A stretch of 64,000 nucleotides of DNA from Nonlabens agnitus. Lineage in GTDB: Bacteria > Bacteroidota > Bacteroidia > Flavobacteriales > Flavobacteriaceae. Below the pieces are notes generated by a model, which was given only the letters and a program-made list of their open reading frames with translations, was not told the origin of the DNA and searched no databases. The stretch lies in the NCBI RefSeq assembly GCF_002994045.1, contig NZ_MQUC01000003.1, positions 1,836,501 through 1,900,500 on the forward strand, in the 5' to 3' direction. The translations under genes and the position numbers were made by a program. Positions 22,105-42,830 of this stretch are shown here, one piece after another (the first letter of the stretch is position 1; each line of letters opens with the position of its first letter).

Positions 22105-22161
22105 GTTGTGTGTAATGTGACAAACGAAAATTAAATTATTAACAAATTAAATTATATAATT

Positions 22162-22500
22162 ATGAAAAATTTATTTCTTGCAATTGCTCTGATTATTGGA
22201 TTAAATTCCTTTGCTCAAGACAAAACCGAAATTAAAAATGACAAACCTGAATTCAAATGTGATGTAGTTAAATTTAATAAAGAAACTAACACAATTGAAT
22301 TATTAGGAAATGTTAGTTTTAAAACTGACATTATTGAATTGGAAAAAGCAGAAAAAATACTCTTGAACAAAGAAACGAACGAAATTATTGTTAGCGGATT
22401 AGCACAGTTTACAATCGATGGAGCAATCCAGATTTCTGAAAAAGCCGATAAAAAAATTATGAGGTATAAAATCGGAGAACGAATAGCTTACGTCGAATAA
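22162..22500 (+). CDS. Small exported OstA/LptA-like protein (cassette 1)
   Basis: The protein has 112 residues and starts MKNLFLAIALIIGLNSFAQ, a clear signal peptide with cleavage after FAQ. The mature part (EFKCDVVKFNKETNTIELLGN, then VSFKTDIIELEKAEKIL, then IIVSGLAQFTIDGAIQI) reads like a short beta-jellyroll of the OstA/LptA kind, where successive strands describe a substrate trough. Lipopolysaccharide transport is the role of true LptA; this short version is probably a relative of unknown function. It is the first cassette next to the recombinase. Its ends are GTTGTGTGTAAT (22105) and ACTACACACAAC (22503). Confidence 0.6.
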   Translation: MKNLFLAIALIIGLNSFAQDKTEIKNDKPEFKCDVVKFNKETNTIELLGNVSFKTDIIELEKAEKILLNKETNEIIVSGLAQFTIDGAIQISEKADKKIMRYKIGERIAYVE

Positions 22501-22502
22501 AC

Positions 22503-22636
22503 ACTACACACAACAACGGCTATAGTTCATTGCGGCGGAATTTCCTCTCGGAAATTCCTGCGTATTTGCAATGTTTGGTTTACGGCGGAATAATTCTGCC
22601 GAATCATTCCGCAACGAAACCATAGCCCAAACCGTT
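22503..22636 (+). repeat. attC-like site of cassette 1
   Basis: R'' ACTACACACAAC, then AAC + GGCTATAGTT...TGCGG pairing with CCGCA...CATAGCC, then a 5-6 nt spacer and GTT. An inner GCGGAATxxTTC hairpin repeats twice. Confidence 0.8.
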
Positions 22637-23094
22637 CAGGCCAATTGCCTGCGGCCGTAGCTCTCCGCTATGAAATTTTAATTTTAAGGCTTGAGCACCA
22701 ATCAATTCGAATGTGAGTATGGTTAAAAACTACTAATCAGCCTGAAGAGCTTCAAAATTTCAAGACCTGCCTGCCGGCAGGCTCCCAATTTACTCATGTG
22801 TCTTCCTCTCGCTCCTACCTCGCTCGTCGGAGACAGAAAAGGCAACCGTGATCAAACGCCTTTTCAAAAGGTTGGTGTTTACCTGGCTAGGATCTCGCTT
22901 CCTACACCAACTGGCACGAACATAGCATAAAGCGCATAAGGTATGCATTCCTCTCGCTGTGCTCGTCGGATGCAGGATGCTCCACGTGAGGCTTCTATTC
23001 AATAACAATAACTATCTTCATCCATCAAAACCAATCAATGGAAAGGTAACAGCCAAAGATGAGGGAACGCCTCACACGCATAATACCTTTGCCG
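22635..23094 (+). repeat. ORF-less cassette, copy E1
   Basis: First of six near-identical non-coding cassettes (E1-E6). It begins TTCAGGCCAATTGCC and ends ACCTTTGCC-GTT. It contains three hairpin-forming inserts relative to E5: CTGCCTGCCGGCAGGC near 22770-22786, TGTCTTCC...GGAGACA near 22799-22836, and GCATTCC...GGATGC near 22946-22975. The insert next to its expected R'' removed the sequence complementary to its start. No open frame is conserved among the copies. Confidence 0.8.
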
Positions 23095-23104
23095 TTAGGT
23101 GCAA

Positions 23105-23323
23105 TTAGTACGCACCATTACTAAACCAATATTTCGTTTCACAATCTTCGCAACAATGTACTTCTTCCCAATCCCAATAACTACCATCCATAGTTGAGCC
23201 TTTACTTTCATTAAAGCATTTTGGATATTGCTCGTTGTTCACTTCATATTGTTCGTCACTATCATTATGCCATTTTCCACAATTAGGGCATTTGTAATCC
23301 TTAACCTTAACTGCACCTAACAA
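23105..23323 (-). CDS. Small cysteine-rich, probably zinc-binding protein (inverted cassette gene)
   Basis: The 72-residue frame is on the minus strand, opposite to every other cassette gene. It has CPNCGKW near residue 12 and a HCCEDCETKYW cluster near the C-terminus, which together look like a zinc ribbon; the function is unknown. There is no ATG. The first possible start is a TTG at 23323 that lies inside the cassette's own R'' (23310-23321), so the start is uncertain. The stop lies about 10 bp from the left boundary, so the gene fills the cassette exactly. Confidence 0.6.
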   Translation of the reverse strand: MLGAVKVKDYKCPNCGKWHNDSDEQYEVNNEQYPKCFNESKGSTMDGSYWDWEEVHCCEDCETKYWFSNGAY

Positions 23324-23439
23324 TGGCTATAAGTAATTGCTTGTTCTCGCCTACTTCTGAAAATCCTCGCGGACTTTCTATTCGGTTTGTATTTGCTAAA
23401 TTAGTGAATTAAAGACGCCAATAATTATACACAAACACC
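23310..23439 (+). repeat. attC-like site of cassette 3
   Basis: R'' ACTGCACCTAAC pairs with its start GTTAGGTGCAAT (23094), 11 of 12 bases. The left arm GGCTATAAGTAATTGC is standard. The right arm (GCCAATAATTATACAC) is diverged and the terminal GTT is CTT. Confidence 0.75.
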
Positions 23440-23463
23440 TTGTGCACAATTAAAAACCAACAT

Positions 23464-24642
23464 ATGAAACATTTAATTTATTTTCTTACAGTTATGACCT
23501 TTCTATTAAGTTGCCAAGAAGAAAAGTCAATTGATTTGATTATTGAGAACTTTGAAAAGCAAGTTGAAAAGAATAAATCTTGGGAATATGACATTAACTA
23601 CAAGATGAAATACTTTAGTTCCGATGAAGATACTTTAAACTATAATTCAAATGTTCGATTAATAAAACATAAAAATGACACCATTTTCGGTGGAAGTTTT
23701 TGGATAAAAAACGATAGCATTGACAGATACTACGACTTAGAAAATATCTATATTATCAATCACAAACAGAAAAAGATAACTAAATTCTTTCCACACAAAG
23801 GTCAAGATTGGGCAATTAATGGAAATACAATAAGTGGTGTTCTAGATTCTTATTTTTTAAAAGCAAATCGATTATCAAAATACTGGAAAGACTCTACCAC
23901 AGTTGCCAGATTAACTGATACAATTTTTCGAGATTCAAATAGAAATGCTATAAAATTCAGATTTAAAGACAACTTACCAATTGAAAAACAAAGAAAGATT
24001 TTCTTTTTCAACGAAGATGACAACTTAAAAAATATAATCTACTCAGTTAAATTTCAAAATGAGCATCAATACAATGAATGGCATTTCACCAATGAGAAAT
24101 ATAACAGCATAACCGATAGTGATTTACAATTAGAGTTAAGCAATCTAATTGACAGCTACAAAATCGAAGATTATAAAGAAACTGACCCAAAAGAAATGGA
24201 ACCTATAGCTAACGGAATTGAAGCACCAGTATTTGAAGGCTTTAATTTTCAACTTAATGACTCCATCAGTTTAAAAGATTACAGAAACAAATATGTTTTG
24301 GTTGACTTTTGGTACAAGGATTGTTTTCCCTGTATAAAAGCAATCGCCTCATTAAATAAAATACGAACTGAATATTCAAAAAATGATTTGGCGATTCTCG
24401 GATTAAATCCATACGACAATAAAGAAAAGGATAAGGAGAAACTTGAAGAGTTCATCGAAATAAATGAAATGAATTATCCAACGATATTTGTTGATAATGA
24501 AGTCACTAAAATATATAATGTTAGAGCATATCCAACTTTTTATATTATAGATACTAATGGCGAAATTGTTTATTCAAAAATTGGACATAGTGAAAAGAAT
24601 GAAAAGGAGATCGATAGTTTACTAAATAAATGGATAAAATAA
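23464..24642 (+). CDS. Lipoprotein with C-terminal thioredoxin/TlpA-like domain
   Basis: Start ATG 23464 (MKHLIYFLTVMTFLLSC) opens directly on a lipoprotein signal; an upstream TTG frame is discarded. The protein of about 392 residues has an N-terminal 230-residue region unlike anything I can name, rich in Lys/Asp/Asn. A TlpA/ResA-type thioredoxin domain follows: LNDSISLKDYRNKYVLVDF, active site WYKDCFPCIKA (CxxC), cis-Pro region RAYPTFYIIDTNG. It is probably anchored facing the periplasm as a thiol-disulfide reductase. It is a single gene in its cassette, followed by the attC site that carries IS copies 1 and 2. Confidence 0.85.
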   Translation: MKHLIYFLTVMTFLLSCQEEKSIDLIIENFEKQVEKNKSWEYDINYKMKYFSSDEDTLNYNSNVRLIKHKNDTIFGGSFWIKNDSIDRYYDLENIYIINHKQKKITKFFPHKGQDWAINGNTISGVLDSYFLKANRLSKYWKDSTTVARLTDTIFRDSNRNAIKFRFKDNLPIEKQRKIFFFNEDDNLKNIIYSVKFQNEHQYNEWHFTNEKYNSITDSDLQLELSNLIDSYKIEDYKETDPKEMEPIANGIEAPVFEGFNFQLNDSISLKDYRNKYVLVDFWYKDCFPCIKAIASLNKIRTEYSKNDLAILGLNPYDNKEKDKEKLEEFIEINEMNYPTIFVDNEVTKIYNVRAYPTFYIIDTNGEIVYSKIGHSEKNEKEIDSLLNKWIK

Positions 24643-24655
24643 CTGCACACAACAA

Positions 24656-25869
24656 AGAACTGAGGTAAAAAACAAGCTATTTCCTAATTTAAATTAGCCC
24701 ATAAGTTTCCCTTCCAAAGATTTGATGACCCTTTGGATATGTATTTCTCTCTAAAGTGAGACCTTTTAGGCTACTCGACTCACGTATGCCGGATCGAAAG
24801 GCAGGCCACTCTTACCTATCGCAAAGGCCTGTCTGAGCAGTTTGTTCCCAACAGCTATCAAAGCCAGTTTCTTGCTCTTGCCCTTTGCCGTGATGCGCTC
24901 ATACATTGCCTTGCATCCTGGATTGTGCTTACAGGCGTTAAAGGCGCACATGAACATCAAATTGCGCAGCCTCCTGTTGCCCATCTTGCTGATCCTGCTG
25001 CGACCTCTCACGCTACTGCCCGATTCACGTATCACCGGACTCATCCCGGCATAGCTGATGAGCTGTGAGGCCGTTTGAAAACGGGAAAAGCCATCGGTCA
25101 GTGCCAAAAGATAGATAGCCGTGCGGTCTCCTATTCCAGGGATGCTGCACAGATGGGCCTTTTGATTGCCGTAGAGCATCTTGACCAGATCTGCCAATTC
25201 GTTTTCCAGCACTTGTATCTGTTGATCCATATGCGTAATGCTGCACTGTAGGCTCTTGACCAATACCTCGGATGGCTCACCAAGGGTCTTCTCACCGTGT
25301 AGCTTATTCTTCAGCATCGTACGCTGCTTCAGGTACACCTCCAGCATACTACAGGTCTGAAGCATTGCTTTGGATTCCACACTCTTATTCTGATAAATGG
25401 CGACCTTTTCCTGTAGGCCATAGCTGCGTATCATCTCTGCATCGCTCTTGTCCGTCTTTACACGCTTCAATCTCATCTGGATAAAACGCTTTACCGACAG
25501 AGGATTGAGAAGGGATGACGGTACTCCAAAACCATTCAGGAACTCAAGTAACAAAACGTGGTAATATCCCGTTGCCTCCATGACCACCAGGTCCGTATCG
25601 TACAGACCCTCCAGAAACCTATGGAACCCATCATCGTTGTTACTGAAACGTTCATGTCCATAACGCTCACTAAAGACATCAAAGTGGTCCTTGCTGATGT
25701 CTACTCCAAAGACTTCTGTATATTTATCCATAATAAATAGTTTTATGAAAGGACGATTCTACAGACATTACAACAACTTAAAAACGAGATCTCAAGTCTC
25801 ATAGAACTGAACGTAGTACTGTAGAAAAAGGGAAGTGGTAATCAATGTTGACGAAGTCCAATGCTTCAA
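24656..25869 (-). mobile_element. IS110-family element, copy 1 (truncated at its upstream end)
   Basis: Starts AGAACTGAGG directly after ACAACAA. The transposase is intact, but the non-coding upstream end stops after ...ATGCTTCAA, where copy 2 begins. The outer about 75 bp (TGTATATCTG to GATTAAGA) present in copies 2, 3 and 5 is missing, so the putative guide RNA locus is cut. Confidence 0.88.
24766..25731 (-). CDS. IS110-family transposase (copy 1)
   Basis: The 321-residue protein is identical in all five copies. The N-terminal RuvC-like DEDD domain starts VFGVDISKDHFDV and contains VVMEATGYYH and KTDKSDAEMI. The C-terminal Transposase_20 domain has LCSIPGIGDRTA, LISYAGMSP and VRGRSRISKMGNRRLR. 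A Ser-dependent recombinase activity guided by a bridge RNA is known for IS110 relatives. Here the coding sequence is whole but its upstream RNA region is truncated by copy 2. Confidence 0.95.
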   Translation of the reverse strand: MDKYTEVFGVDISKDHFDVFSERYGHERFSNNDDGFHRFLEGLYDTDLVVMEATGYYHVLLLEFLNGFGVPSSLLNPLSVKRFIQMRLKRVKTDKSDAEMIRSYGLQEKVAIYQNKSVESKAMLQTCSMLEVYLKQRTMLKNKLHGEKTLGEPSEVLVKSLQCSITHMDQQIQVLENELADLVKMLYGNQKAHLCSIPGIGDRTAIYLLALTDGFSRFQTASQLISYAGMSPVIRESGSSVRGRSRISKMGNRRLRNLMFMCAFNACKHNPGCKAMYERITAKGKSKKLALIAVGNKLLRQAFAIGKSGLPFDPAYVSRVA

Positions 25870-25979
25870 AGAACTGAGGTAAAAAACAAGCTATTTCCTA
25901 ATTTAAATTAGCCCATAAGTTTCCCTTCCAAAGATTTGATGACCCTTTGGATATGTATTTCTCTCTAAAGTGAGACCTT

Positions 25980-26945
25980 TTAGGCTACTCGACTCACGTA
26001 TGCCGGATCGAAAGGCAGGCCACTCTTACCTATCGCAAAGGCCTGTCTGAGCAGTTTGTTCCCAACAGCTATCAAAGCCAGTTTCTTGCTCTTGCCCTTT
26101 GCCGTGATGCGCTCATACATTGCCTTGCATCCTGGATTGTGCTTACAGGCGTTAAAGGCGCACATGAACATCAAATTGCGCAGCCTCCTGTTGCCCATCT
26201 TGCTGATCCTGCTGCGACCTCTCACGCTACTGCCCGATTCACGTATCACCGGACTCATCCCGGCATAGCTGATGAGCTGTGAGGCCGTTTGAAAACGGGA
26301 AAAGCCATCGGTCAGTGCCAAAAGATAGATAGCCGTGCGGTCTCCTATTCCAGGGATGCTGCACAGATGGGCCTTTTGATTGCCGTAGAGCATCTTGACC
26401 AGATCTGCCAATTCGTTTTCCAGCACTTGTATCTGTTGATCCATATGCGTAATGCTGCACTGTAGGCTCTTGACCAATACCTCGGATGGCTCACCAAGGG
26501 TCTTCTCACCGTGTAGCTTATTCTTCAGCATCGTACGCTGCTTCAGGTACACCTCCAGCATACTACAGGTCTGAAGCATTGCTTTGGATTCCACACTCTT
26601 ATTCTGATAAATGGCGACCTTTTCCTGTAGGCCATAGCTGCGTATCATCTCTGCATCGCTCTTGTCCGTCTTTACACGCTTCAATCTCATCTGGATAAAA
26701 CGCTTTACCGACAGAGGATTGAGAAGGGATGACGGTACTCCAAAACCATTCAGGAACTCAAGTAACAAAACGTGGTAATATCCCGTTGCCTCCATGACCA
26801 CCAGGTCCGTATCGTACAGACCCTCCAGAAACCTATGGAACCCATCATCGTTGTTACTGAAACGTTCATGTCCATAACGCTCACTAAAGACATCAAAGTG
26901 GTCCTTGCTGATGTCTACTCCAAAGACTTCTGTATATTTATCCAT
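25980..26945 (-). CDS. IS110-family transposase (copy 2)
   Basis: Same 321-residue DEDD/Transposase_20 protein as copy 1. Unlike copy 1 it keeps the full 213-bp non-coding upstream region with both predicted stem-loops, so this copy could be autonomous. The minus-strand orientation is shared by all five copies, set by the orientation of the attC targets. Confidence 0.95.
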   Translation of the reverse strand: MDKYTEVFGVDISKDHFDVFSERYGHERFSNNDDGFHRFLEGLYDTDLVVMEATGYYHVLLLEFLNGFGVPSSLLNPLSVKRFIQMRLKRVKTDKSDAEMIRSYGLQEKVAIYQNKSVESKAMLQTCSMLEVYLKQRTMLKNKLHGEKTLGEPSEVLVKSLQCSITHMDQQIQVLENELADLVKMLYGNQKAHLCSIPGIGDRTAIYLLALTDGFSRFQTASQLISYAGMSPVIRESGSSVRGRSRISKMGNRRLRNLMFMCAFNACKHNPGCKAMYERITAKGKSKKLALIAVGNKLLRQAFAIGKSGLPFDPAYVSRVA

Positions 26946-26970
26946 AATAAATAGTTTTATGAAAGGACGA

Positions 26971-27112
26971 TTCTACAGACATTACAACAACTTAAAAACG
27001 AGATCTCAAGTCTCATAGAACTGAACGTAGTACTGTAGAAAAAGGGAAGTGGTAATCAATGTTGACGAAGTCCAATGCTTCAATGTATATCTGTACCTTA
27101 ACCTTCCCTTTT
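26971..27112 (-). ncRNA. Predicted bridge RNA of IS copy 2
   Basis: Two stem-loops lie upstream of the transposase. Loop A (outer stem 27040-27049 / 27103-27112, ten perfect bp) holds GAAG/CTTC, CAATGTATA (27081-27089), equal to the attC target across the insertion point, and TGTTG, the complement of CAACA on the target's left side. Loop B (stem TTCTACAG / CTGTAGAA, 26971-27040) holds AGAACTGA (27017-27024), equal to the IS end, and CTTAA, the complement of the other IS end. On the minus strand the order is target loop then donor loop, as in known IS110 bridge RNAs. Confidence 0.6.
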
Positions 27113-27358
27113 GTTCTTTCTGTTTGATTTTAAAAATAAAGAGAATACAAGATTAAGATGGCTATAAGTAATTGCTTGTCCTCGCCTACTTCTTAAAATC
27201 CTCGCGGATTTACAGTTTGATGTGTACTTGCAAAGTTAAGTGCTAAAACACGCAACTACTCATAGCCGAGACCGTTAGCTGTTCGGTGTGATTTGAGCGA
27301 AAATCGAGAAAATTTGATTTTTTACCAAAAATTGGTATGTTTGATAAAAATGATTAAA

Positions 27359-27607
27359 ATGAAAAATACATCAATATCGCTCGGAAATTATTTTGACCAG
27401 TTTGTACAAACCCAAGTTTCTGCTGGACGGTACAAAAATGTAAGCGAAGTAATCAGAGCTGGACTTCGACTTTTAGAAAATGAGGAAAGCAAAGTAATTG
27501 CGTTAAGAAATGCTATTCAAGAAGGAATTGATAGTGGAATTGCTCACGATTTCGACCCAAAAAAAAATCTTGAGGAATTAAAAGCTAAACGCAAAAAGAA
27601 TGGCTAA
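27359..27607 (+). CDS. parD: ParD/CC2985-type antitoxin
   Basis: Start ATG 27359 (MKNTSISLGNYFDQFV) matches the usual start of ParD antitoxins; an ATG at 27350 adds three residues. The 82-residue product has the ribbon-helix-helix pattern NTSISLGNYFDQFVQTQV, SAGRYKNVSEVIRAGLRLLE, then a toxin-binding tail ending Lys/Arg-rich. It would bind its own promoter and neutralise the toxin encoded next. Its stop overlaps the toxin start by 8 bp. As a cassette gene pair it could stabilise the array against loss. Confidence 0.88.
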   Translation: MKNTSISLGNYFDQFVQTQVSAGRYKNVSEVIRAGLRLLENEESKVIALRNAIQEGIDSGIAHDFDPKKNLEELKAKRKKNG

Positions 27608-27899
27608 ATACGAATTGACCAATAAGGCTGTAGCTGACTTAAATAGAATTTGGGAGTATACAGTTGAGAATTGGTCTGAAAATCAAGCTGACAGATACTA
27701 CGATATGCTTCTTGATATTTGCCGAGATATAGCTGACAATCCAGAATTAGGAAAAAACTATAATGGGATTAAATCTGACCTTTTCGGATTAAAAGCAAAT
27801 CGACACATAATATTTTATCGAAAAAGAATTGACCATCCGATTGAAATAACAAGAATTTTACACGGTCAAATGGATTTGAAAAACAGAATAACCGAATAA
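27600..27899 (+). CDS. parE: ParE/RelE-type toxin
   Basis: The 99-residue protein has the RelE/ParE fold signature: YELTNKAVADLNRIWEYTVENW at the start, a central RDIADNPELGKNY, and the terminal strands FGLKANRHIIFYRK and IEITRILHGQMD. The ParD partner favours a ParE-like gyrase poison over an mRNA interferase, but that is inference. It is translationally coupled to the antitoxin. Its cassette is one of two carrying two genes. Its end (ACTACACTCAAC) is poorly complementary to its start (GTTAGCTGTTCG), an exception in the array. Confidence 0.88.
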   Translation: MAKYELTNKAVADLNRIWEYTVENWSENQADRYYDMLLDICRDIADNPELGKNYNGIKSDLFGLKANRHIIFYRKRIDHPIEITRILHGQMDLKNRITE

Positions 27900-27903
27900 A
27901 AAA

Positions 27904-28035
27904 ACTACACTCAACAATGGCTATAAGTAATTGCTTGTTCTCGCCTACTTCTGAAAATCCTCACGGATTTTCAGTTCGGTGTTTACTTGCAAAATTAAGT
28001 GCTAAACCACGCAACTACTAATAGCCGAGACCTTT
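27904..28035 (+). repeat. attC-like site of the toxin-antitoxin cassette
   Basis: ACTACACTCAAC, then AAT-GGCTATAAGTAATTGC pairing with GCAACTACTAATAGCC, spacer GAGACC, then TTT in place of GTT. The inner hairpin AAAATCCTCACGGATTTT is shared with other sites. Confidence 0.75.
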
Positions 28036-28493
28036 CAGGCCAATTGCCTGCAGCCGTAGCTCTCCGCTATGAATTTTGAAGCTAAGGCTTCGAATCCCAA
28101 AACATTTGAGTGCCTGCATTAGCAAGATTTTCAAACAGTGACATTACTACAAAATTTCAAAACCTGCCTGCCGGCAGGCAGGCTGCCGATCTACTCCTGT
28201 GTCTTCCTCTCGCTCCTACCTCGCTCGTCGGAGACAGAAACGGCAAAGGTGTGAAACGCCTTGATCAATAGGTATGTCTATACTTGGCAAGGCTACGCTT
28301 CCTCCACCAACTGGCACGAACAGAGCATAAAGCGCATAAGACATACATTCCTCTCGTTGCACTCGTCGGATGCAGGATGCTCCACGCGAGGCTTCTATTC
28401 CACAACATTAACTATCTTCATCCATCAAAACCAATTAAGGCAAGGTAACAGCCAAACGTGAGGGAACGCCTCACACGCATTATATCTTTGCTG
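28034..28493 (+). repeat. ORF-less cassette, copy E2
   Basis: Same layout as E1, with a longer GC palindrome (CCTGCCTGCCGGCAGGCAGG near 28165-28185). It keeps AACGGCAAAGGTGTGAAACGCC, which pairs with the terminal CCTTTGCC-type arm. It ends TATCTTTGCT-GTT. Confidence 0.8.
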
Positions 28494-28532
28494 TTGTAAG
28501 TAATGAGAAACAAAAATTTAGAAAAAAATCAA

Positions 28533-29240
28533 ATGAAAATAGCATATAAAATCTGCTGCATTTTTCTACTGTGCATTTTATCGATTAAACTAAATGCCCA
28601 AATTAATGTGCGAATAGAGAATGACGACAACCTATTTTGGCAACCGAACATTGAATTAAGCTACTCGGATTTTAAATCAAAATCAAATGAAGATTGCGAA
28701 AAATTCAACGAAAAATATGGTTGGGAAATGTCTGGCACTATCGAGTTAAAGGGAATTGTTGATGTGCCTAAATCACACCTGTCAAAAAGAATAAGAAAAC
28801 GAAAGGGCGATGACAAATCTTATATCGCTCCAGTATTTTGTAAAAATTGCTCCTGCAAACTTTCTGAAAATTCATCAGAATTAGAAGTTCATAAATTGCT
28901 TTTCGATGTCGCTGAAATGTGCTCAAGAGCTTTGAGAAGAGAACTAAGTGAGACAAAAGCCAAAATGGAGATTAACAATGTAAATACTATGTTTTTCACA
29001 ACGGCTAAGAATAAATGGGATGAGAGAATGAGAAAAATTTGGGGTACGATTCTTCAAGATATTCTAATCGAAAATAAAAAAGGAGCATATTTGGAATGGC
29101 GAAATCTCATAAATGAGTTAATGGAAAAAAATGAAGAGTTTGCTACAAAACCGAATGAAATAAAAAGATTGATGTCAGAAATGCCGATAGAAGAAGGTTA
29201 TGTAGAAGCAGATAGAATTGTTGGAGACCTTGATAATTAA
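28533..29240 (+). CDS. Hypothetical exported protein with Cys motif (cassette gene)
   Basis: An in-frame ATG at 28503 exists, but the signal peptide begins at ATG 28533 (MKIAYKICCIFLLCILSIK), with cleavage after LNAQ. The mature part of about 210 residues starts with DDNLFWQPNIELSYSDFKS. It contains a CKNCSC cluster and a helical, charged C-terminal half (HKLLFDVAEMCSRALRRELSE, then WRNLINELMEKNEEFATK). I do not recognise the family; the start resembles exported DUF922-like proteins, but no HExxH is present. The cassette ends are GTTGTAAGTAAT and ACTGCCTACAAC. Confidence 0.65.
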   Translation: MKIAYKICCIFLLCILSIKLNAQINVRIENDDNLFWQPNIELSYSDFKSKSNEDCEKFNEKYGWEMSGTIELKGIVDVPKSHLSKRIRKRKGDDKSYIAPVFCKNCSCKLSENSSELEVHKLLFDVAEMCSRALRRELSETKAKMEINNVNTMFFTTAKNKWDERMRKIWGTILQDILIENKKGAYLEWRNLINELMEKNEEFATKPNEIKRLMSEMPIEEGYVEADRIVGDLDN

Positions 29241-29251
29241 ATGAACAAAGC

Positions 29252-29451
29252 ACTGCCTACAACATGGGCTATATGTAATACGGGCTAAGTTGCTTAATCT
29301 AAAATAATCGCTAATTTGCAATGACCTCCATAACCTCATTATGGCTTTTTGAAATAATAAAATAAAATACCAGAAAACAAGGTTTTGGCTCTGTGCTCAA
29401 CTGAATAGACATCGCCTGTTTGCGCCCGCACTACTCATAGCCACAAACGTT
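29252..29451 (+). repeat. attC-like site of cassette 7 (long type)
   Basis: About 200 bp. Arms GGCTATATGTAATACGGGC and GCCCGCACTACTCATAGCC, with an inner AACAAGGTTTTGGC segment. The same long type occurs at 40337-40537. Confidence 0.8.
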
Positions 29452-29894: not shown

Positions 29895-29906
29895 TTACCC
29901 ATATTT

Positions 29907-34286: not shown

Positions 34287-34459
34287 GTTCTTTCTGTTTG
34301 ATTTTAAAAATAAAGAGAATACAAGATTAAGATGTATAACCGCAATTACGGCGGATTCGACTACGTCCGAATCCACTCGGAATTGCTAACGTCTGTGCTA
34401 AACCGAAAATTAACGCATATTAACCCGTAACTGACGGTTATACTTCACCGTTGCCACCA

Positions 34460-35061: not shown

Positions 35062-35169
35062 CTTATGGCGGGTGAACGGCTGCCAGCAAGGCTTTCGCTC
35101 CGTAGCCAACTTTGGTTTCGGTGGACAGGAAAGTGCTTCGAAACCGCCACAAGCCATATGCAAACCGTT
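35039..35169 (+). repeat. attC-like site of cassette 13
   Basis: R'' ACTGGTGGCAAC pairs with the start GTTGCCACCAAT. Arms GCATATAGCTTATGGCGG / CCGCCACAAGCCATATGC, spacer AAACC, GTT. The inner part has GGTTTCGGTGG ... TTCGAAACCGCC. Confidence 0.85.
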
Positions 35170-35185
35170 GTACAACATACCCGAA

Positions 35186-35881: not shown

Positions 35882-35898
35882 AGTACGTTGTACAACAA

Positions 35899-37112
35899 AG
35901 AACTGAGGTAAAAAACAAGCTATTTCCTAATTTAAATTAGCCCATAAGTTTCCCTTCCAAAGATTTGATGACCCTTTGGATATGTATTTCTCTCTAAAGT
36001 GAGACCTTTTAGGCTACTCGACTCACGTATGCCGGATCGAAAGGCAGGCCACTCTTACCTATCGCAAAGGCCTGTCTGAGCAGTTTGTTCCCAACAGCTA
36101 TCAAAGCCAGTTTCTTGCTCTTGCCCTTTGCCGTGATGCGCTCATACATTGCCTTGCATCCTGGATTGTGCTTACAGGCGTTAAAGGCGCACATGAACAT
36201 CAAATTGCGCAGCCTCCTGTTGCCCATCTTGCTGATCCTGCTGCGACCTCTCACGCTACTGCCCGATTCACGTATCACCGGACTCATCCCGGCATAGCTG
36301 ATGAGCTGTGAGGCCGTTTGAAAACGGGAAAAGCCATCGGTCAGTGCCAAAAGATAGATAGCCGTGCGGTCTCCTATTCCAGGGATGCTGCACAGATGGG
36401 CCTTTTGATTGCCGTAGAGCATCTTGACCAGATCTGCCAATTCGTTTTCCAGCACTTGTATCTGTTGATCCATATGCGTAATGCTGCACTGTAGGCTCTT
36501 GACCAATACCTCGGATGGCTCACCAAGGGTCTTCTCACCGTGTAGCTTATTCTTCAGCATCGTACGCTGCTTCAGGTACACCTCCAGCATACTACAGGTC
36601 TGAAGCATTGCTTTGGATTCCACACTCTTATTCTGATAAATGGCGACCTTTTCCTGTAGGCCATAGCTGCGTATCATCTCTGCATCGCTCTTGTCCGTCT
36701 TTACACGCTTCAATCTCATCTGGATAAAACGCTTTACCGACAGAGGATTGAGAAGGGATGACGGTACTCCAAAACCATTCAGGAACTCAAGTAACAAAAC
36801 GTGGTAATATCCCGTTGCCTCCATGACCACCAGGTCCGTATCGTACAGACCCTCCAGAAACCTATGGAACCCATCATCGTTGTTACTGAAACGTTCATGT
36901 CCATAACGCTCACTAAAGACATCAAAGTGGTCCTTGCTGATGTCTACTCCAAAGACTTCTGTATATTTATCCATAATAAATAGTTTTATGAAAGGACGAT
37001 TCTACAGACATTACAACAACTTAAAAACGAGATCTCAAGTCTCATAGAACTGAACGTAGTACTGTAGAAAAAGGGAAGTGGTAATCAATGTTGACGAAGT
37101 CCAATGCTTCAA
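35899..37112 (-). mobile_element. IS110-family element, copy 4 (truncated at its upstream end)
   Basis: The same truncated state as copy 1. It ends at ...ATGCTTCAA, where copy 5 begins, losing the outer about 75 bp. The junction is base-for-base the same as in the copy 1/2 tandem. Confidence 0.88.
36009..36974 (-). CDS. IS110-family transposase (copy 4)
   Basis: Intact 321-residue transposase identical to the other four. Its own upstream RNA region is cut by copy 5, so it would depend on guide RNA supplied by another copy. Confidence 0.95.
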   Translation of the reverse strand: MDKYTEVFGVDISKDHFDVFSERYGHERFSNNDDGFHRFLEGLYDTDLVVMEATGYYHVLLLEFLNGFGVPSSLLNPLSVKRFIQMRLKRVKTDKSDAEMIRSYGLQEKVAIYQNKSVESKAMLQTCSMLEVYLKQRTMLKNKLHGEKTLGEPSEVLVKSLQCSITHMDQQIQVLENELADLVKMLYGNQKAHLCSIPGIGDRTAIYLLALTDGFSRFQTASQLISYAGMSPVIRESGSSVRGRSRISKMGNRRLRNLMFMCAFNACKHNPGCKAMYERITAKGKSKKLALIAVGNKLLRQAFAIGKSGLPFDPAYVSRVA

Positions 37113-37222
37113 AGAACTGAGGTAAAAAACAAGCTATTTCCTAATTTAAATTAGCCCATAAGTTTCCCTTCCAAAGATTTGATGACCCTTTGGATATGTA
37201 TTTCTCTCTAAAGTGAGACCTT

Positions 37223-38188
37223 TTAGGCTACTCGACTCACGTATGCCGGATCGAAAGGCAGGCCACTCTTACCTATCGCAAAGGCCTGTCTGAGCAGTTT
37301 GTTCCCAACAGCTATCAAAGCCAGTTTCTTGCTCTTGCCCTTTGCCGTGATGCGCTCATACATTGCCTTGCATCCTGGATTGTGCTTACAGGCGTTAAAG
37401 GCGCACATGAACATCAAATTGCGCAGCCTCCTGTTGCCCATCTTGCTGATCCTGCTGCGACCTCTCACGCTACTGCCCGATTCACGTATCACCGGACTCA
37501 TCCCGGCATAGCTGATGAGCTGTGAGGCCGTTTGAAAACGGGAAAAGCCATCGGTCAGTGCCAAAAGATAGATAGCCGTGCGGTCTCCTATTCCAGGGAT
37601 GCTGCACAGATGGGCCTTTTGATTGCCGTAGAGCATCTTGACCAGATCTGCCAATTCGTTTTCCAGCACTTGTATCTGTTGATCCATATGCGTAATGCTG
37701 CACTGTAGGCTCTTGACCAATACCTCGGATGGCTCACCAAGGGTCTTCTCACCGTGTAGCTTATTCTTCAGCATCGTACGCTGCTTCAGGTACACCTCCA
37801 GCATACTACAGGTCTGAAGCATTGCTTTGGATTCCACACTCTTATTCTGATAAATGGCGACCTTTTCCTGTAGGCCATAGCTGCGTATCATCTCTGCATC
37901 GCTCTTGTCCGTCTTTACACGCTTCAATCTCATCTGGATAAAACGCTTTACCGACAGAGGATTGAGAAGGGATGACGGTACTCCAAAACCATTCAGGAAC
38001 TCAAGTAACAAAACGTGGTAATATCCCGTTGCCTCCATGACCACCAGGTCCGTATCGTACAGACCCTCCAGAAACCTATGGAACCCATCATCGTTGTTAC
38101 TGAAACGTTCATGTCCATAACGCTCACTAAAGACATCAAAGTGGTCCTTGCTGATGTCTACTCCAAAGACTTCTGTATATTTATCCAT
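37223..38188 (-). CDS. IS110-family transposase (copy 5)
   Basis: 321 residues, identical to the other copies, with the complete upstream RNA region. Identity of all five proteins indicates recent spread. Confidence 0.95.
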   Translation of the reverse strand: MDKYTEVFGVDISKDHFDVFSERYGHERFSNNDDGFHRFLEGLYDTDLVVMEATGYYHVLLLEFLNGFGVPSSLLNPLSVKRFIQMRLKRVKTDKSDAEMIRSYGLQEKVAIYQNKSVESKAMLQTCSMLEVYLKQRTMLKNKLHGEKTLGEPSEVLVKSLQCSITHMDQQIQVLENELADLVKMLYGNQKAHLCSIPGIGDRTAIYLLALTDGFSRFQTASQLISYAGMSPVIRESGSSVRGRSRISKMGNRRLRNLMFMCAFNACKHNPGCKAMYERITAKGKSKKLALIAVGNKLLRQAFAIGKSGLPFDPAYVSRVA

Positions 38189-38213
38189 AATAAATAGTTT
38201 TATGAAAGGACGA

Positions 38214-38355
38214 TTCTACAGACATTACAACAACTTAAAAACGAGATCTCAAGTCTCATAGAACTGAACGTAGTACTGTAGAAAAAGGGAAGTGGTAATC
38301 AATGTTGACGAAGTCCAATGCTTCAATGTATATCTGTACCTTAACCTTCCCTTTT
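38214..38355 (-). ncRNA. Predicted bridge RNA of IS copy 5
   Basis: Same two-loop region as in copies 2 and 3, with the target-matching CAATGTATA at 38324-38332 and the donor-matching AGAACTGA at 38260-38267. Confidence 0.6.
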
Positions 38356-38578
38356 GTTCTTTCTGTTTGATTTTAAAAATAAAGAGAATACAAGATTAAG
38401 ATGTATAACCGCAATTACGGCGGATTCGACTACGTCCGAATCCACCCGGAATTGCTAACGTCAGTTTTTAACCGAAAATCATTAACTTTAATCCCGTAAC
38501 TTACGGTTATACGAGACCGTTGGCAAACATTTTGACGCAACCTTATAAATGGAATCTCATCTACAAATAAATAGAATT

Positions 38579-39112
38579 ATGAAAAATAAATTGATTCTGA
38601 TTTTATCAATATTGACATTCATTGCTTGCGATACAGCGTCTGTCGATTTAGACGATAAAAACTATGTATTTGACGGACGAGGAGGCGTGAAATGTGAGGT
38701 TAACGGTAACCTATTAAAACCATCTGTAGTAACAAGTCCAGGTGCTAGATCCGTTTGGTTCAGTATAGCTGACTATGATGATTTAAATCGTATGTACCTT
38801 TCGTTTAGGAATAGAGGTCAATCACCTGATTTCATAGACCAATTTGTAACAATAGAAGTTACTGACGTTAGCACAACGACTTCAATGGTCGGAAATATTT
38901 ATAATCTTGGTAATGAACCAAATCAAGGAGAATACAATATTGATACCGCCAATTCTGTTTTCAAAACGAATGACATATATTTTGGAACTTTAGAAATTTT
39001 ATATCACGACATTGATAATTATATTTTAGGTGGTCGTTTTGAGTTTGATGCAGTAAATGAAGATGGAGAAGTTATTGAAATAAGAGAAGGAGAATTTGAT
39101 TTAAAATATTAA
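38579..39112 (+). CDS. Hypothetical lipoprotein (cassette gene)
   Basis: ATG 38579 (MKNKLILILSILTFIACDT) gives a lipoprotein signal; ATG 38549 upstream adds ten residues before it. The mature about 160 residues look all-beta (GGVKCEVNGNLLKPSVV, then RMYLSFRNRG, then YILGGRFEFDAVNEDGE, then IEIREGEFDLKY), a pattern common in single-domain Bacteroidota lipoproteins related to DUF5025/DUF6252-like families. The exact family is not certain. The end GATTTGCCAAC matches the start GTTGGCAAAC over nine bases. Confidence 0.7.
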   Translation: MKNKLILILSILTFIACDTASVDLDDKNYVFDGRGGVKCEVNGNLLKPSVVTSPGARSVWFSIADYDDLNRMYLSFRNRGQSPDFIDQFVTIEVTDVSTTTSMVGNIYNLGNEPNQGEYNIDTANSVFKTNDIYFGTLEILYHDIDNYILGGRFEFDAVNEDGEVIEIREGEFDLKY

Positions 39113-39119
39113 TAAAAAA

Positions 39120-39251
39120 CGATTTGCCAACAATGGCTATACGTAATTGCTTGTCCTCGCCTACTTCTGAAAATCCTAGCGGATTTTCAGTTTGGTGTGT
39201 ACTTGAAAAATTAAGTGCTAACCCACGCAACTACTCATAGCCGAGACCGTT
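39120..39251 (+). repeat. attC-like site of cassette 15
   Basis: GGCTATACGTAATTGC ... GCAACTACTCATAGCC arms, spacer GAGACC, GTT, inner AAAATCCTAGCGGATTTT. Same subtype as the sites at 23310, 24642 and 27904. Confidence 0.85.
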
Positions 39252-39632
39252 CAGGCCAATTGCCTACGGCCGTAGCTCTCCGCTATGAAATTTTAATTTT
39301 AAGGCTTGAGCACCAATCAATTCGAATGTGAATATGGCTAAAACCGCTAATCAACCTGAAGCGCTTCAAAATTTCAAGACTCCCAATCTACTCAATTGGC
39401 CTGAACGGCAAAGGTGTGAAACGCCTTGATCAATAGGTAAGTTTATACCTAGCAAGGCTACGCTTCCTCCACCAACTGGCACGAACATAGCATAAAGCGC
39501 ATAAGGCGTTCCAAATGCTCCACGCGAGGCTTCTATTCAACAACATTAACTATCTTCATCACACAAAACCAATCAATGGCAAGGTAACAGCCAAACGTGA
39601 GGGAACGCCTCACACGCATTATACCTTTGCCG
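39250..39632 (+). repeat. ORF-less cassette, copy E5 (insert-free, R'' intact)
   Basis: The shortest copy (383 bp), lacking all three hairpin inserts of the others. It alone keeps CAATTGGCCTGAAC (39393-39406), complementary to its own start GTTCAGGCCAATTG over 14 bases. It therefore looks like the ancestral, still recognisable form of this cassette. Its attC-like part is 39395-39634, and here no unpaired spacer separates AAC from GGCAAAGG. Confidence 0.85.
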
Positions 39633-39646
39633 TTGTGCATAATATT

Positions 39647-40333
39647 ATGAAATACAGTTTTTTAATCATAATTCTGGCATTTGGATTTAAGGCATTCGCT
39701 AACACGACACCACAAATCCCAGATAAACTCATCTATGGCGGTAAAGAATACGAATGGAGTGGTATTAGTCCAGCATATGACTATTTTGAGAAAAATAACT
39801 TTGAACCGCCAAAAGATGCATTAGAAACAACAGCAAATTATGGGATTTTCATTTACACATATTCTATTATTGATAATGCGCTTTATCTAACAGACGTTGA
39901 AATCTTGATTGAAAAACATGTCAAATATGGAGAAAATTATGTTCCTGAACTTGCTGACAAATCTGTATTTAAAGACTACTTCCCAAACTCAGATAAAATA
40001 TTAATGCAAGAACATTCAAATATTCAGGTTATACCATATGGGAAAATGGTCGAAGTAACTAAAAACGGCTGGACAGATATACATAACAAAAGCTACTTAA
40101 TTTTTGATTTTAAAAATGGTCTTATTTTAAAAGAGTTTGACTTAAATCACAGACGGTTTAAAAAACTTAAAGAAAAACAATTTGAGAAATTTAAGAATAC
40201 GAAACTCTATCATAAAGCAAAAATTGAAAGAAAAAGTAATTTTGAGGGTTTCAACGAATTCAGACCAAATAAGTATTCAATAGATGAATATTTGGAACTG
40301 ATAATTTTTCGATTGATTGAGCATTTCGTGTAA
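39647..40333 (+). CDS. Hypothetical exported protein (cassette gene)
   Basis: Start ATG 39647 (MKYSFLIIILAFGFKAFANT) is a signal peptide start; the long frame from 39515 runs through E5 and is rejected. The mature about 210 residues contain IYGGKEYEWSGISPAYDYFEKN, LYLTDVEILIEK and WTDIHNKSYLIFDFKNG, then a basic C-terminal region (RRFKKLKEKQFEKFKN). I do not recognise the family; it is probably periplasmic. The cassette ends GTTGTGCATAAT and ACTATGCACAAC are complementary except for the conserved one-base mismatch. Confidence 0.65.
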   Translation: MKYSFLIIILAFGFKAFANTTPQIPDKLIYGGKEYEWSGISPAYDYFEKNNFEPPKDALETTANYGIFIYTYSIIDNALYLTDVEILIEKHVKYGENYVPELADKSVFKDYFPNSDKILMQEHSNIQVIPYGKMVEVTKNGWTDIHNKSYLIFDFKNGLILKEFDLNHRRFKKLKEKQFEKFKNTKLYHKAKIERKSNFEGFNEFRPNKYSIDEYLELIIFRLIEHFV

Positions 40334-40336
40334 AAT

Positions 40337-40537
40337 ACTATGCACAACAACGGCTATAAGTAATGCGGGATTAGGTGCTTAACCGAAAAGAAATAGCTAT
40401 TTTGCAACGACCGCCAAAACCTTGTTTTGGCTTTTTGAAATATTAAGATAAAAAACCAGAAAACAAGGTTTTGGCTCTGTGCTCAACCGAAAGGAAAGTG
40501 CGTGTTTGCGCCCGCACTACTTATAGCCACGACCGTT
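40337..40537 (+). repeat. attC-like site of cassette 17 (long type)
   Basis: GGCTATAAGTAATGCGGG ... CCCGCACTACTTATAGCC, spacer ACGACC, GTT. Inner CAAAACCTTGTTTTGGC and AACAAGGTTTTGGC. A sister of the site at 29252. Confidence 0.85.
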
Positions 40538-40551
40538 GGCAGTAATATGAA

Positions 40552-41541
40552 ATGAAGAAAGACGGAATAAATATCATTGGTTATGTTGAACAGAAGTTTT
40601 CAAAACCAAAACCTGTTTTATACTCTAATGGAAAAGGATTTGAACTCAAATTTTCAGAAGAAGATGAAATAAGAATGGGTCTATGGGCAAGTGACTTATC
40701 AATCTATAAGAACGTAAAGAACATTTCAAGCCAGCTATTGACCAAAAACTTTTTAGCGACTTTACCGAATAATTACGAACCTTTCTCCAATAGTGGCAGA
40801 TACTGTTTAATTCCGACTTGTCCTATTCTTGACAACCCTTCTCTTATTGTCATAGACACCGAAAATTTAACTAAAGAAGAATTAAATATAAAAGGAGCTT
40901 TAATGAGTAATCAATTTGCTCCTAATACAGAAACAGTCTTAATCTCAGGTTACACAAAAATCTTTCTTTTCGATTGTAGCAGTAACGAATCGACAGAAAT
41001 TGAGATACCATATAAACCAAATGAAATTAACCATTCATACTGGATTGACTCCGTTACAATTAGATTAATGGTTTCACCCAGAACCGACAGAGTTCAAAGA
41101 ATATTAAACTATAATACTGACACAAAAAAATATGAGACTTTTGAGATTATTTCTCCAGGTGAAGTATTTGGTTTTGAACCTTTGGAAGAAATTGTTACAT
41201 CTGACAACTTCTGTTTGTTCAATGCAAAAGGATATTCATCTGCTGCTGTTGGTAGACTTCTAAACCAATGGACATTTATCAATTTTGATAATGAGTCAAA
41301 CCTATACAAACTAAGAACGAATGTCCCAGTTTCTGGTATCTTCTACAGTAAAAGTTGGAAAATGAAAGGGATAAAGACTATTCAACAGGATGTAGAGTTC
41401 AACTTTAATGGAAAAGGAATAACTGGAAAAGAAAATACTACTGCCAACATTGGCTATACGGCAATGGCGGATGAAGTGGAAGAAGGAAAGTCAGAAGTTA
41501 AATCAAAAATTTGGTCAAAACTGAAACGCATGTGGTCTTAA
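40552..41541 (+). CDS. Hypothetical cytoplasmic protein, possible beta-propeller-like (cassette gene)
   Basis: The 329-residue protein has no signal peptide, which is unusual in this array. It has repeated short strand patterns (GRYCLIPTCPILDNPSLIVID, TVLISGYTKIFLFDCSSNE, SYWIDSVTIRLMV) that suggest a beta-rich, perhaps propeller-like fold; no family is recognised. The last about 33 codons (from TANIGYTAMADEVEEG on) are encoded by the attC itself (41437-41569), so the natural C-terminus depends on the recombination site. Cassette ends are GTTGGCAGTAAT and ACTACTGCCAAC. Confidence 0.65.
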   Translation: MKKDGINIIGYVEQKFSKPKPVLYSNGKGFELKFSEEDEIRMGLWASDLSIYKNVKNISSQLLTKNFLATLPNNYEPFSNSGRYCLIPTCPILDNPSLIVIDTENLTKEELNIKGALMSNQFAPNTETVLISGYTKIFLFDCSSNESTEIEIPYKPNEINHSYWIDSVTIRLMVSPRTDRVQRILNYNTDTKKYETFEIISPGEVFGFEPLEEIVTSDNFCLFNAKGYSSAAVGRLLNQWTFINFDNESNLYKLRTNVPVSGIFYSKSWKMKGIKTIQQDVEFNFNGKGITGKENTTANIGYTAMADEVEEGKSEVKSKIWSKLKRMWS

Positions 41542-41569
41542 ACCGCCACTGCGCATAGCCGAGACCGTT
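41437..41569 (+). repeat. attC-like site of cassette 18
   Basis: R'' ACTACTGCCAAC, ATT, GGCTATACGGCAATGGCGG paired with CCGCCACTGCGCATAGCC, spacer GAGACC, GTT. It overlaps the 3' end of the gene. Confidence 0.85.
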
Positions 41570-42025
41570 CAGGCCAATTGCCTGCGGCCGTAGCTCTCCG
41601 CTATGAAATTTTGATTTTAAGGCTTGAGCACCAATCAATTCGAATGTGAGTAGGGGTAAAAACTACTAATCAGCCTGAAGAGCTTCAAAATTTCAAGACC
41701 TGCCTGCCGGCAGGCTCCCAATTTACTCATGTGTCTTCCTCTCGCTCCTACCTCGCTCGTCGGAGACATAAACGGCAAAGGTGTGAAACGCCTTGATCAA
41801 TAGGTAAGTGTATACTTGGCAAGGCCAAGCTTCCTCCACCAACTGGCACGAACATAGCATGAAGCGAATAAGGCACGCATTCCTCTCGCTGTGCTCGTCG
41901 GATGCAGGATGCTCCACGCGAGGCTTCTATTCAACAACATTAACTATATTCATCCATCAAAACCAATATATGGCAAGGTAACAGCCAAAGGTGAGGGAAC
42001 GCCTCACACGCATTATACCTTTGCC
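41568..42025 (+). repeat. ORF-less cassette, copy E6
   Basis: Full set of three hairpin inserts as in E1. It ends TATACCTTTGCC-GTT directly before the last cassette gene. Confidence 0.8.
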
Positions 42026-42041
42026 GTTGCCAGTAATTTAA

Positions 42042-42740
42042 ATGAACCACTTCAACCTCATATCGAGTTTAATTTTATTAGGATTAACAGTCCTTAGTAT
42101 TTGGCTTCCATTTAAAGAAGGAAATAAACGAACTGGAATTATAACTGGAATTATTTTGTTCATAATTATTGCTTGGACAATTTTAGCAGAATTGGAATTT
42201 CTTGTGATTTTTATTTGGCCATTTATTTTGGCATTTCAAATCATATTTCTGACTTATTGGACTTTTAGAGTATTTAAAAGACCGAAAATCGGAAAATATG
42301 TCTCAACTTTTTTGACTTTGGGTTTCATCTTATTATGTATGTCACCTTGGATAAGTGACTGGACTTTTACCAAAAATGATGCACGAAAATTATTAGCGCA
42401 ACATAATATTGAATTGAAAGACGATTTTAAAATCCTGAATAATGAAAGTGGCGGATTTATGGACTACACACACACTCTAAAAATTCAAATCTCGGATTCT
42501 GACAAATCGAGAATTGAAAAGGAAATAAGAGAATCCAAAGGGTTTTTAAAGATTGTAGATTTTAAAAATAATTTCCCTTCAGCGGACTATGAAACTTTTG
42601 AAAAATTGAATTTTGAAACGGAGAATTATCTTAATCGAGAATACTATATAAAAGAACCTATGGAAGATGGAACTATTCACTTTCATTTTCAACTTTCAAA
42701 GACAGAAAACGAATTACAATATATAGGAACTGATGAATAA
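42042..42740 (+). CDS. Hypothetical membrane protein (last cassette gene)
   Basis: The 232-residue protein has about four N-terminal membrane helices (LISSLILLGLTVLSIWL, TGIITGIILFIIIAW, FLVIFIWPFILAFQIIF, VSTFLTLGFILLCMSP). A soluble C-terminal domain of about 120 residues follows (NDARKLLAQHNIELKDDFKI, then HTLKIQISDSDKSRIEKEI, then HFHFQLSKTENELQYIG). No family is recognised. The cassette ends GTTGCCAGTAAT and ACTACTGGCAAC are complementary except for one base. Confidence 0.7.
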   Translation: MNHFNLISSLILLGLTVLSIWLPFKEGNKRTGIITGIILFIIIAWTILAELEFLVIFIWPFILAFQIIFLTYWTFRVFKRPKIGKYVSTFLTLGFILLCMSPWISDWTFTKNDARKLLAQHNIELKDDFKILNNESGGFMDYTHTLKIQISDSDKSRIEKEIRESKGFLKIVDFKNNFPSADYETFEKLNFETENYLNREYYIKEPMEDGTIHFHFQLSKTENELQYIGTDE

Positions 42741-42743
42741 AAA

Positions 42744-42830
42744 ACTACTGGCAACACCGTATATAATTTATTGCTAGTTCTAGCCTACTTACGAAAATCC
42801 TCTCGGATTTTCGCTTTGATAAGAAGAGCA
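42744..42830 (+). repeat. Truncated attC-like site closing the array
   Basis: R'' ACTACTGGCAAC, CCGTATATAATTTATTGC, then AAAATCCTCTCGGATTTTCGC, after which the right arm and GTT are missing. The array therefore ends in a half site. Confidence 0.75.

Follow-up and report, generated by a model that had tools for sequence, protein, structure and literature searches.

An integron-type cassette array of Nonlabens agnitus and its neighbouring tyrosine recombinase lacking the IntI-specific insertion

Organization of the cassette array

The analysed window, a stretch of 64,000 nucleotides of Nonlabens agnitus (contig NZ_MQUC01000003.1, positions 1,836,501 to 1,900,500), carries a cassette array of approximately 20 kb at positions 22105–42830. 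Of its cassettes, 14 are coding and 6 noncoding, which bears out the original prediction of about 20 gene cassettes; they are built in the order G|TT start, gene, attC-like end. It is headed by a gene encoding a tyrosine recombinase on the minus strand (21162–21992; approximately 277 codons from the ATG at 21992), whose frame contains an in-frame TGA (21525–21527) after codon 155. An attI-like site (21993–22105, plus strand), ending in ..CTTGCTTCTATACACTAG|TT, is placed between the start of the recombinase gene and the first cassette.

The ends of the cassettes are complementary to their own starts. Perfect pairing of the first nine bases with the own end was found in 10 of the 14 coding cassettes (registers checked), while the cassettes starting at 29894 and 28493 paired at 8/9 and 7/9 positions, and those at 23439 and 27274, whose own-end pairing is degenerate, at 6/9 each. 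When 14 positions were counted, the own end was strictly the best partner in 12 of the 14 coding cassettes, with a mean of 11.9 paired positions versus 7.3 with the ends of other cassettes, and none of 200,000 permutations of these cassettes reached the observed pairing total. All the start/end pairs quoted in the original prediction were present, displaced by at most one base; its statement that the six variable bases (N6) match the own start alone applies to most coding cassettes, four being imperfect. The matching also held in a larger sample, comprising the window and the Nonlabens stretches L119, L121 and L126, in which starts were chosen solely because a noncoding cassette precedes them (26 were found and one near a stretch end was dropped): a perfect nine-base partner was located downstream in 21 of 25 cases, versus 21 of 617 with the starts swapped.

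The pairing had been estimated to extend over about 12 bases; it is indeed extended, and the arms actually span 14 positions with a mismatch at position 11, where A faces C in 11 of the 14 coding cassettes. Only 1 of the 14 coding starts fits GTTRRRY. Although this misfit had been correctly noted, it is weak evidence and was dropped as proof of distinctness, since in canonical IntI arrays from this phylum, too, the starts often depart from the motif. The own-end complementarity does not distinguish the system either, as canonical integron cassettes have the same property.

An exact-stem attC scan detected one true site, because of mismatches within the inner stems; the sites were instead found by own-end chaining and a 15-base signature. 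An Rfam search of the window and a PADLOC search with nine cassette proteins yielded no matches.

All the cassettes were assigned to the plus strand. Starting from the recombinase side, the array comprises coding cassette 1 (22105–22633; a protein of 112 amino acids [aa] with a weak OstA_2 match, attC, pair 22105/22514), the first noncoding copy (22634–23093), which belongs to the GTTCAGGCC family, cassette 2 (23094–23438; a 72 aa open reading frame [ORF] on the minus strand with weak Zn-ribbon matches, pair 23094/23321) and cassette 3 (23439–27273), which encodes an AhpC/TSA-thioredoxin-like protein (23464–24642) and has its attC split by two tandem copies of an insertion sequence (IS) of the IS110 family. 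Cassette 4 (27274–28032) carries a ParD/ParE toxin-antitoxin pair and is followed by the second noncoding copy (28033–28492), whose boundary is T|TT, and by cassette 5 (28493–29448; 245 aa, attC, pair 28493/29263). The third noncoding copy (29449–29893), with the start variant GTTCAGGCCAATCGCC, precedes cassettes 6 (29894–31066; 325 aa, attC, pair 29894/30885) and 7 (31067–31873; 216 aa, attC, pair 31067/31755), and the fourth (31874–32312) precedes cassette 8 (32313–34449; 234 aa), whose attC is split by an IS110-family copy starting at 33041. The proteins of cassettes 5 to 8 had no Pfam match.

Cassette 9 (34450–35166; attC, pair 34450/35050) encodes a CarboxypepD_reg-like protein and contains an additional 91 aa ORF. 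It is followed by cassette 10 (35167–38518; 235 aa), with an attC again split by two tandem IS110-family copies, and by cassette 11 (38519–39248; 187 aa, attC), in whose pair 38519/39131 positions 10–12 are unpaired. The own ends of the fifth noncoding copy (39249–39631) are perfectly complementary over 14 bases. The remaining part consists of cassette 12 (39632–40534; 228 aa, attC, pair 39632/40348), cassette 13 (40535–41566; pair 40535/41448), in which a 329 aa ORF extends into attC, the sixth noncoding copy (41567–42025) and cassette 14 (42026–42830; 232 aa, pair 42026/42755), whose truncated attC, the last one, marks the array end.

The array-adjacent recombinase

The recombinase is intact in Nonlabens sp. 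YIK11 (95% identity) and N. marinus (84%). Internal stop codons were considered as a common feature of these recombinases and this was rejected, as most of them are probably ordinary terminal stops; among the Nonlabens frames inspected, only those of G000 and G017 look internally broken.

The window protein scored below the cutoffs of all the profiles examined: 189 bits against 220 for XerA (NF040815), 173 against 329.6 for XerD (TIGR02225) and 155 against 335 for XerC; the Xer scores of the intact orthologue P0001 were similar and also below the cutoffs. Against the IntI model (TIGR02249) it reached 166 bits (cutoff 265), matching profile positions 3–181 and 239–314 and skipping 182–238, and both the window protein and the intact orthologue remained approximately 100 bits below this cutoff. 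In a wider alignment of the family, all 47 members matched the XerA, XerD and IntI models. The alignment to the IntI4 structure (2a3v) is likewise interrupted at 177/180 and continues from 193/239. The spacing between the K motif and HxxR amounts to 59–67 residues in the family (46 of the 47 rows measured), 106–108 in IntI (14/14) and 69 and 72 in the two Xer rows. The structure predicted for the YIK11 protein from the 47-row alignment (mean predicted local distance difference test score 82.5, predicted template-modelling score 0.68) contains no helix between helices 171–181 and 198–212. The first fold matches were an archaeal Xer (4a8e; template-modelling [TM] score 0.54) and IntI4 (2a3v; TM 0.74). 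The recombinase carries an IntI-like SPL C-terminal tail, and a longer form, extended by an additional N-terminal part, also occurs in the family.

In a tree of 62 rows, whose root rests on two Xer rows, the IntI proteins formed one clade (100/100) and the 47 family rows were placed outside it (unity of the family weakly supported, 75/76). Judged by these sequence comparisons, the array-adjacent recombinase is not an IntI: it is devoid of the insertion, scores under the cutoff and falls outside the IntI clade.

Structure of the recombination sites

The arms were analysed in 77 unique Nonlabens coding pairs, chosen for their first nine bases and for an L''-like motif. Pairing at position 10 was seen in 61 of them; at position 11, A of the start faced C of the end in 72 and no Watson-Crick pair was present; positions 12, 13 and 14 were paired in 72, 75 and 74, respectively, and position 15 in 11. 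When gene direction alone defined the orientation, position 11 was A.C in 55/59 Nonlabens pairs versus 0/20 at canonical IntI loci (17 Watson-Crick). At other loci of the family the position was A.C in 54/91 cases and Watson-Crick in 14, these counts including chance pairs. A top-strand A.C means that the bottom strand has G.T at this place.

Circle-form sites were folded with DNA parameters. The bottom strand was the more stable one in 34/35 Nonlabens sites (three of them noncoding), 40/45 sites of other family loci, 9/13 sites of Pollutibacter and 8/15 canonical sites, and the ratios of bottom to top G.T pairs were 185:32, 191:92, 44:12 and 26:18, respectively. In Pollutibacter and at those four of nine other family loci whose arrays lie on the 3' side, orientation was set by the mismatch, so that the strand bias there is partly circular. 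The canonical comparison is small (20 pairs in 7 loci; 10–15 sites folded). With the arms excluded, the bottom strand was still more stable in 29/32 Nonlabens sites, 16/18 sites of 5'-side loci, 6/15 canonical sites and 7/9 sites of the window alone.

Minimum-energy folding of 32 Nonlabens sites, the noncoding ones excluded, gave a median outer stem of 36 bp. Single-base bulges averaged 0.56 per site in this set, 0.53 in 36 sites of other family loci and 1.80 in 10 canonical sites; at least one was present in 17/32, 12/36 and 7/10 sites, respectively. The distinguishing traits of the system are neither own-end complementarity nor the GTTRRRY misfit; they are (i) the recombinase without the IntI insertion, (ii) the longer arm with A.C at position 11 and (iii) the strand-biased wobble pairs.

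Cassette boundaries and exchange between species

The noncoding cassette of the window occurs in four genomes, in which 30 starts (five stretches) and 26 ends (four stretches) were located by inner motifs; these motifs predetermine the initial bases within the start as well as the terminal bases of the end, GTT included. The 30 bases shown inside the G|TT boundary are conserved and those outside are variable. The base preceding TT at the starts is G in 28 of the 30 cases and A or T in two.

Breaks between relatives exactly at G/TT had been foreseen, and cassettes with different neighbours whose homology ends at G|TT were indeed found. The ParDE cassette of the window (27274–28032) is 98% identical in YIK11, where it has other neighbours on both sides and homology extends no further than the boundary at either end; its right boundary in the window is T|TT. 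The gene part of cassette 10 recurs in G014 at 88% identity; there its left neighbour is another one and its attC differs. Among nine other array stretches and the second array of YIK11, a BLAST match covering the gene was obtained for only 2 of the 14 coding cassettes of the window. On these comparative grounds, cassettes are exchanged among Nonlabens species at G|TT. Of 140 cassette ORFs with 60 aa or more, 131 read toward attC in the orientation given by the signature pairs; 15 further cassettes have no ORF of this length.

The head of the array is conserved as well. The end ..ATACACTAG|TT is common to the window and to L119, L121, L126, L127 and L128 (five stretches, four genomes), with differing first cassettes; L129 and L131 have variants of it, and the ends in L123 and L125 diverge further. 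By its conservation beside the recombinase gene, this head is an attI site. When direct repeats were sought in attI of eight loci, they exceeded shuffled sequences in L123 and L125, were borderline in L127 and L129, and did not exceed them in the other four, including the window.

A tandem 11-bp repeat, CCATACACTAA, which resembles the attI end ATACACTAG, is located just downstream of the recombinase gene (21002–21055). The corresponding site of YIK11 has one copy of it.

The flanks of the window site are present in all seven other Nonlabens genomes searched and adjoin each other in six of them, G014 being the exception. The DNA between the flanks amounts to 1.1 kb in N. marinus, 0.3 kb in N. 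arenilitoris, and 2.9, 4.4 and 10 kb in G020, G002 and G022, respectively, the latter three giving no BLAST match to the window array. At this chromosomal site YIK11 carries a 9-kb array without a recombinase (L165, G007:C1:3008000-3018000), while its recombinase lies with another array elsewhere on the contig (approximately 1.02 versus 3.01 Mb). Thus, recombinase and array can separate.

Linkage and distribution of the recombinase family

Chains of own-end pairs were detected beside the recombinase in YIK11 (22), N. marinus (13), L123 (8), L125 (9) and L127 (9), and shorter ones in L126 (5), L128 (5), L129 (2) and L131 (6); some members are chance pairs, and the first links in L121, L127 and L131 look like such. 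The maximum chain in ten shuffles of each stretch was 2. The signature pairs were found at 27 of 80 loci and in 13 of another 15 stretches, in a single orientation in 40/40 cases (28/28 of those with at least two pairs), while five shuffles of 1.59 Mb yielded two A.C and two G.T pairs. None occurred in ten stretches around canonical IntI genes, nor, as a control, at the four loci tested (L136 and L193–L195) among the six that carry other tyrosine recombinases in this genome.

The recombinase family, delimited by a threshold of our own choice (E≤1e-40), was detected in 126 of the 247 genomes sampled from the class Bacteroidia. A canonical IntI above the cutoff was detected in 1 of these 247 genomes and none in the window genome; in a wider sample of the phylum it was found in 84 of 296 genomes, all, by the values listed, outside the class except G094. 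Groups in which arrays adjoin family recombinases include Chryseobacterium, Pedobacter and Chitinophagaceae. The array is located 5' of the recombinase and reads away from it in Nonlabens and Chryseobacterium. Among 20 hand-picked class-wide loci, 11 of which lie on contigs ending less than 3.3 kb from the gene, five had at least two signature pairs, and five shuffles produced no A.C or G.T pair.

In addition, on a contig of Kerfeldbacteria (candidate phyla radiation; L082), five cassettes form an own-end chain next to a partial recombinase match.

Noncoding cassettes and insertion sequences

The six noncoding copies with the GTTCAGGCC start are interspersed with the coding cassettes of the window, and a perfect own end is kept only in the copy at 39249. 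Three high-copy noncoding families, seemingly unrelated, were observed: GTTGTCGGTGATTG (L127/L128), GTTGCTGGACGATA (L131) and GTTCAGGCC (window, L119/L121/L126), each scattered among coding cassettes of different Nonlabens species. The end TACCTTTG of the window family resembles the Bacteroidetes -7 box; the presence of promoters in the noncoding cassettes was considered and dropped, as no counterpart of this end was seen in the L127/L128 and L131 families. Some noncoding copies contain short palindromic inserts (..CTCGCTC.. / ..CTCGTCGGA..) at the place expected for the R'' box, e.g. at 22800–22850, 28205–28240, 29625–29660, 32040–32080 and 41735–41775, which look like elements of the repetitive extragenic palindromic type.

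The IS110-family (RNA-guided) element is represented by eight identical units of 1214 bp at five genomic sites: 24653–27154, 33041–34330, 35896–38400, L191 (approximately 9761) and L192 (approximately 8279–9493). At four of the five the flanks identify the target as attC, with the same cut just after R'' (CAACAA|), and two of these insertions are tandem pairs. At the fifth site, L192, where the element again forms a tandem pair, the target is similar but no cassette is obvious. The element resembles the IS1111-attC elements, targeting here a non-canonical attC; a literature search on it, restricted to open PMC papers, gave no description of this cassette system. The copy in L191 (G000:C4, approximately 507.8–509.7 kb) exposes a second small cassette site of the same genome, with one signature pair; among the genome matches listed there was no family recombinase at this place.

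Discussion

With good confidence, although on the strength of comparisons between sequences, we regard the locus as an integron-type cassette array on which the adjacent tyrosine recombinase, devoid of the IntI-specific insertion, is likely to act. The original prediction of a capture system related to, yet distinct from, classical integrons is thus supported by exchange at G|TT, by attI, by the non-IntI recombinase and by the differences in the sites.

Several observations weigh against this interpretation. The recombinase frame of the window strain is broken by a single TGA; for this reason the array may be frozen at present or served in trans. The YIK11 array without an adjacent recombinase indicates that adjacency is not strict, and the overall fold is at least as near to IntI4 (TM 0.74) as to Xer. 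No signature pair was found at 53 of the 80 loci, including those of Bacteroides and Phocaeicola (many loci end at contig ends), and at least one was found at only 8 of the 20 hand-picked class-wide loci (6/9 with the full 20-kb context). The array lies 3' of the recombinase and reads in the same direction in L030, L036, L050, L052, L053 and 7 of the 8 positive class-wide loci. Position 11 is mostly Watson-Crick in Pollutibacter (L030), the inner-stem strand bias is weak in the 3'-side loci (10/18), and single-base bulges, although rarer, are still present in 17 of the 32 Nonlabens sites.

An ordinary sedentary chromosomal integron with a divergent IntI would have the same layout as the window (a divergent recombinase gene, attI, and an array with attC, G|TT and own-end pairing), and the SPL tail and the IntI4 fold match point in the same direction. 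However, the insertion is missing from all 46 measured family rows and from the predicted structure, the window protein and its intact orthologue fall approximately 100 bits short of the IntI cutoff and outside the fully supported IntI clade (100/100), and A.C at position 11 separates 55/59 pairs here from 0/20 canonical ones, all of which makes this explanation unlikely. A little less probable still is that the array is moved in trans by the host XerC/XerD or an IntI encoded elsewhere, with the neighbouring recombinase a mere bystander. The hairpin integration by Xer described for IMEX phages in PMC7790495 provides a precedent, and the broken recombinase of the window strain and the YIK11 array lying away from its recombinase are compatible with such a trans-acting enzyme. 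Against this stand the lack of an IntI above the cutoff in the genome (1/247 in the class), the position of the orthologues at the head of Nonlabens arrays and of family members next to arrays in Chryseobacterium, Pedobacter and Chitinophagaceae, and the absence of signature pairs from four of the six other tyrosine-recombinase loci. Moreover, the dif and pdif module sites of Xer systems are conserved in sequence, whereas those of the array are not: the 77 coding start/end pairs of Nonlabens are all unique.

The ends could also be plain inverted repeats bound as duplex, without any single-strand folding; at the level of R' and R'' such repeats would look alike, the recombinase here has no I2 helix, and tyrosine recombinases typically act on duplex DNA, according to a passage of PMC7790495. 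Yet the arm sequence is free while pairing is kept, and neither the nearly fixed A.C (G.T) of the arms nor the strand-biased wobble of the inner stems would be expected of a duplex mechanism, which we therefore hold to be improbable. The identical copies of the IS110-family element and the repetition of noncoding elements might suggest that the repeats were spread by transposition or gene conversion and not by site-specific recombination; this is very hard to reconcile with the matched own ends of most coding cassettes and with a whole cassette found elsewhere with breaks at both of its boundaries, and we give it almost no credence.

In most cassettes, the complementary ends would restore one long hairpin site over 14 positions in the circular form. 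Assuming that the array is worked by the family recombinase, the enzyme would act on the folded bottom strand. Folding is suggested because N6 varies among cassettes and pairing is nevertheless kept, as if shape and not sequence were recognised; the bottom strand is the probable substrate because the mismatches are one-sided (A.C on top, G.T at the bottom). Wobble pairs and an uneven spacer might then mark the strand for the enzyme, instead of extrahelical bases docking in I2.

The passages of PMC7790495 dealing with integron integrases hold that the I2 helix is necessary for capture, confers single-strand recombination and blocks second-strand exchange, that canonical integrases read extrahelical bases via this helix, and that no other enzymes recombine both single- and double-stranded sites; a report cited there states that deletion of the insertion in IntI1 abolishes capture. 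We lean, by a narrow preference, towards a second kind of integron, in which an I2-less, IntI-related recombinase would capture folded single strands and a G.T wobble code, fixed at arm position 11, would replace the extrahelical bases. Possibly, it is a living relative of the state preceding I2. If an I2-less cassette system is real, single-strand recombination either predates I2 or arose twice, and the accepted account becomes directly testable.

With the family present in roughly every second genome sampled from Bacteroidia, this may be the cassette system that predominates in the class, and the abundance of the family relative to canonical IntI (126/247 versus 1/247) exposes a large pool of mobile genes. 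Such a second kind would have been overlooked because surveys search for IntI; the portion of the IntegronFinder 2.0 paper concerned with this group names one complete integron in Bacteroidetes proper, that of Salinibacter. Our literature search, which covered open PMC papers and left bioRxiv outside its scope, found no description of such a cassette system, although this does not prove that there is none.

Comparison with known systems

The system shares features with several known ones. Like the Xer-dependent modules (IMEX) treated in part of PMC7790495, it would involve DNA moved by Xer-like enzymes. XerA and XerD gave the best profile matches and resemble the recombinase in having no insertion in the catalytic domain, and the archaeal Xer 4a8e was the first fold match; in contrast to them, the recombinase scores below their cutoffs, has an IntI-like SPL C-terminus and is linked to cassette arrays. 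The 'integron-like' subgroup of tyrosine recombinases, in which the insertion is said to be incompletely conserved, may contain such proteins, although the passages of PMC8138268 considered describe no cassette array or site structure for members without the insertion. Clusters of attC sites lacking an integron integrase (CALIN), as defined in a passage of PMC8618304, are similar in being attC arrays without IntI, but here a non-IntI recombinase family heads the array with its own attI. The closest parallels are with canonical integrons, whose arrays are laid out alike and which share attI next to the recombinase gene, G|TT joins, own-end complementarity, genes reading toward attC and sites that fold as a hairpin from R''/R' and L''/L'. 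They differ from the present family in the 3'-side arrays of several of its loci, in its recombinase, which has no IntI insertion and lies outside the IntI clade, and in its sites, whose arms of 14–15 bp with A.C/G.T at position 11 contain fewer single-base bulges and show a wobble bias toward the bottom strand.

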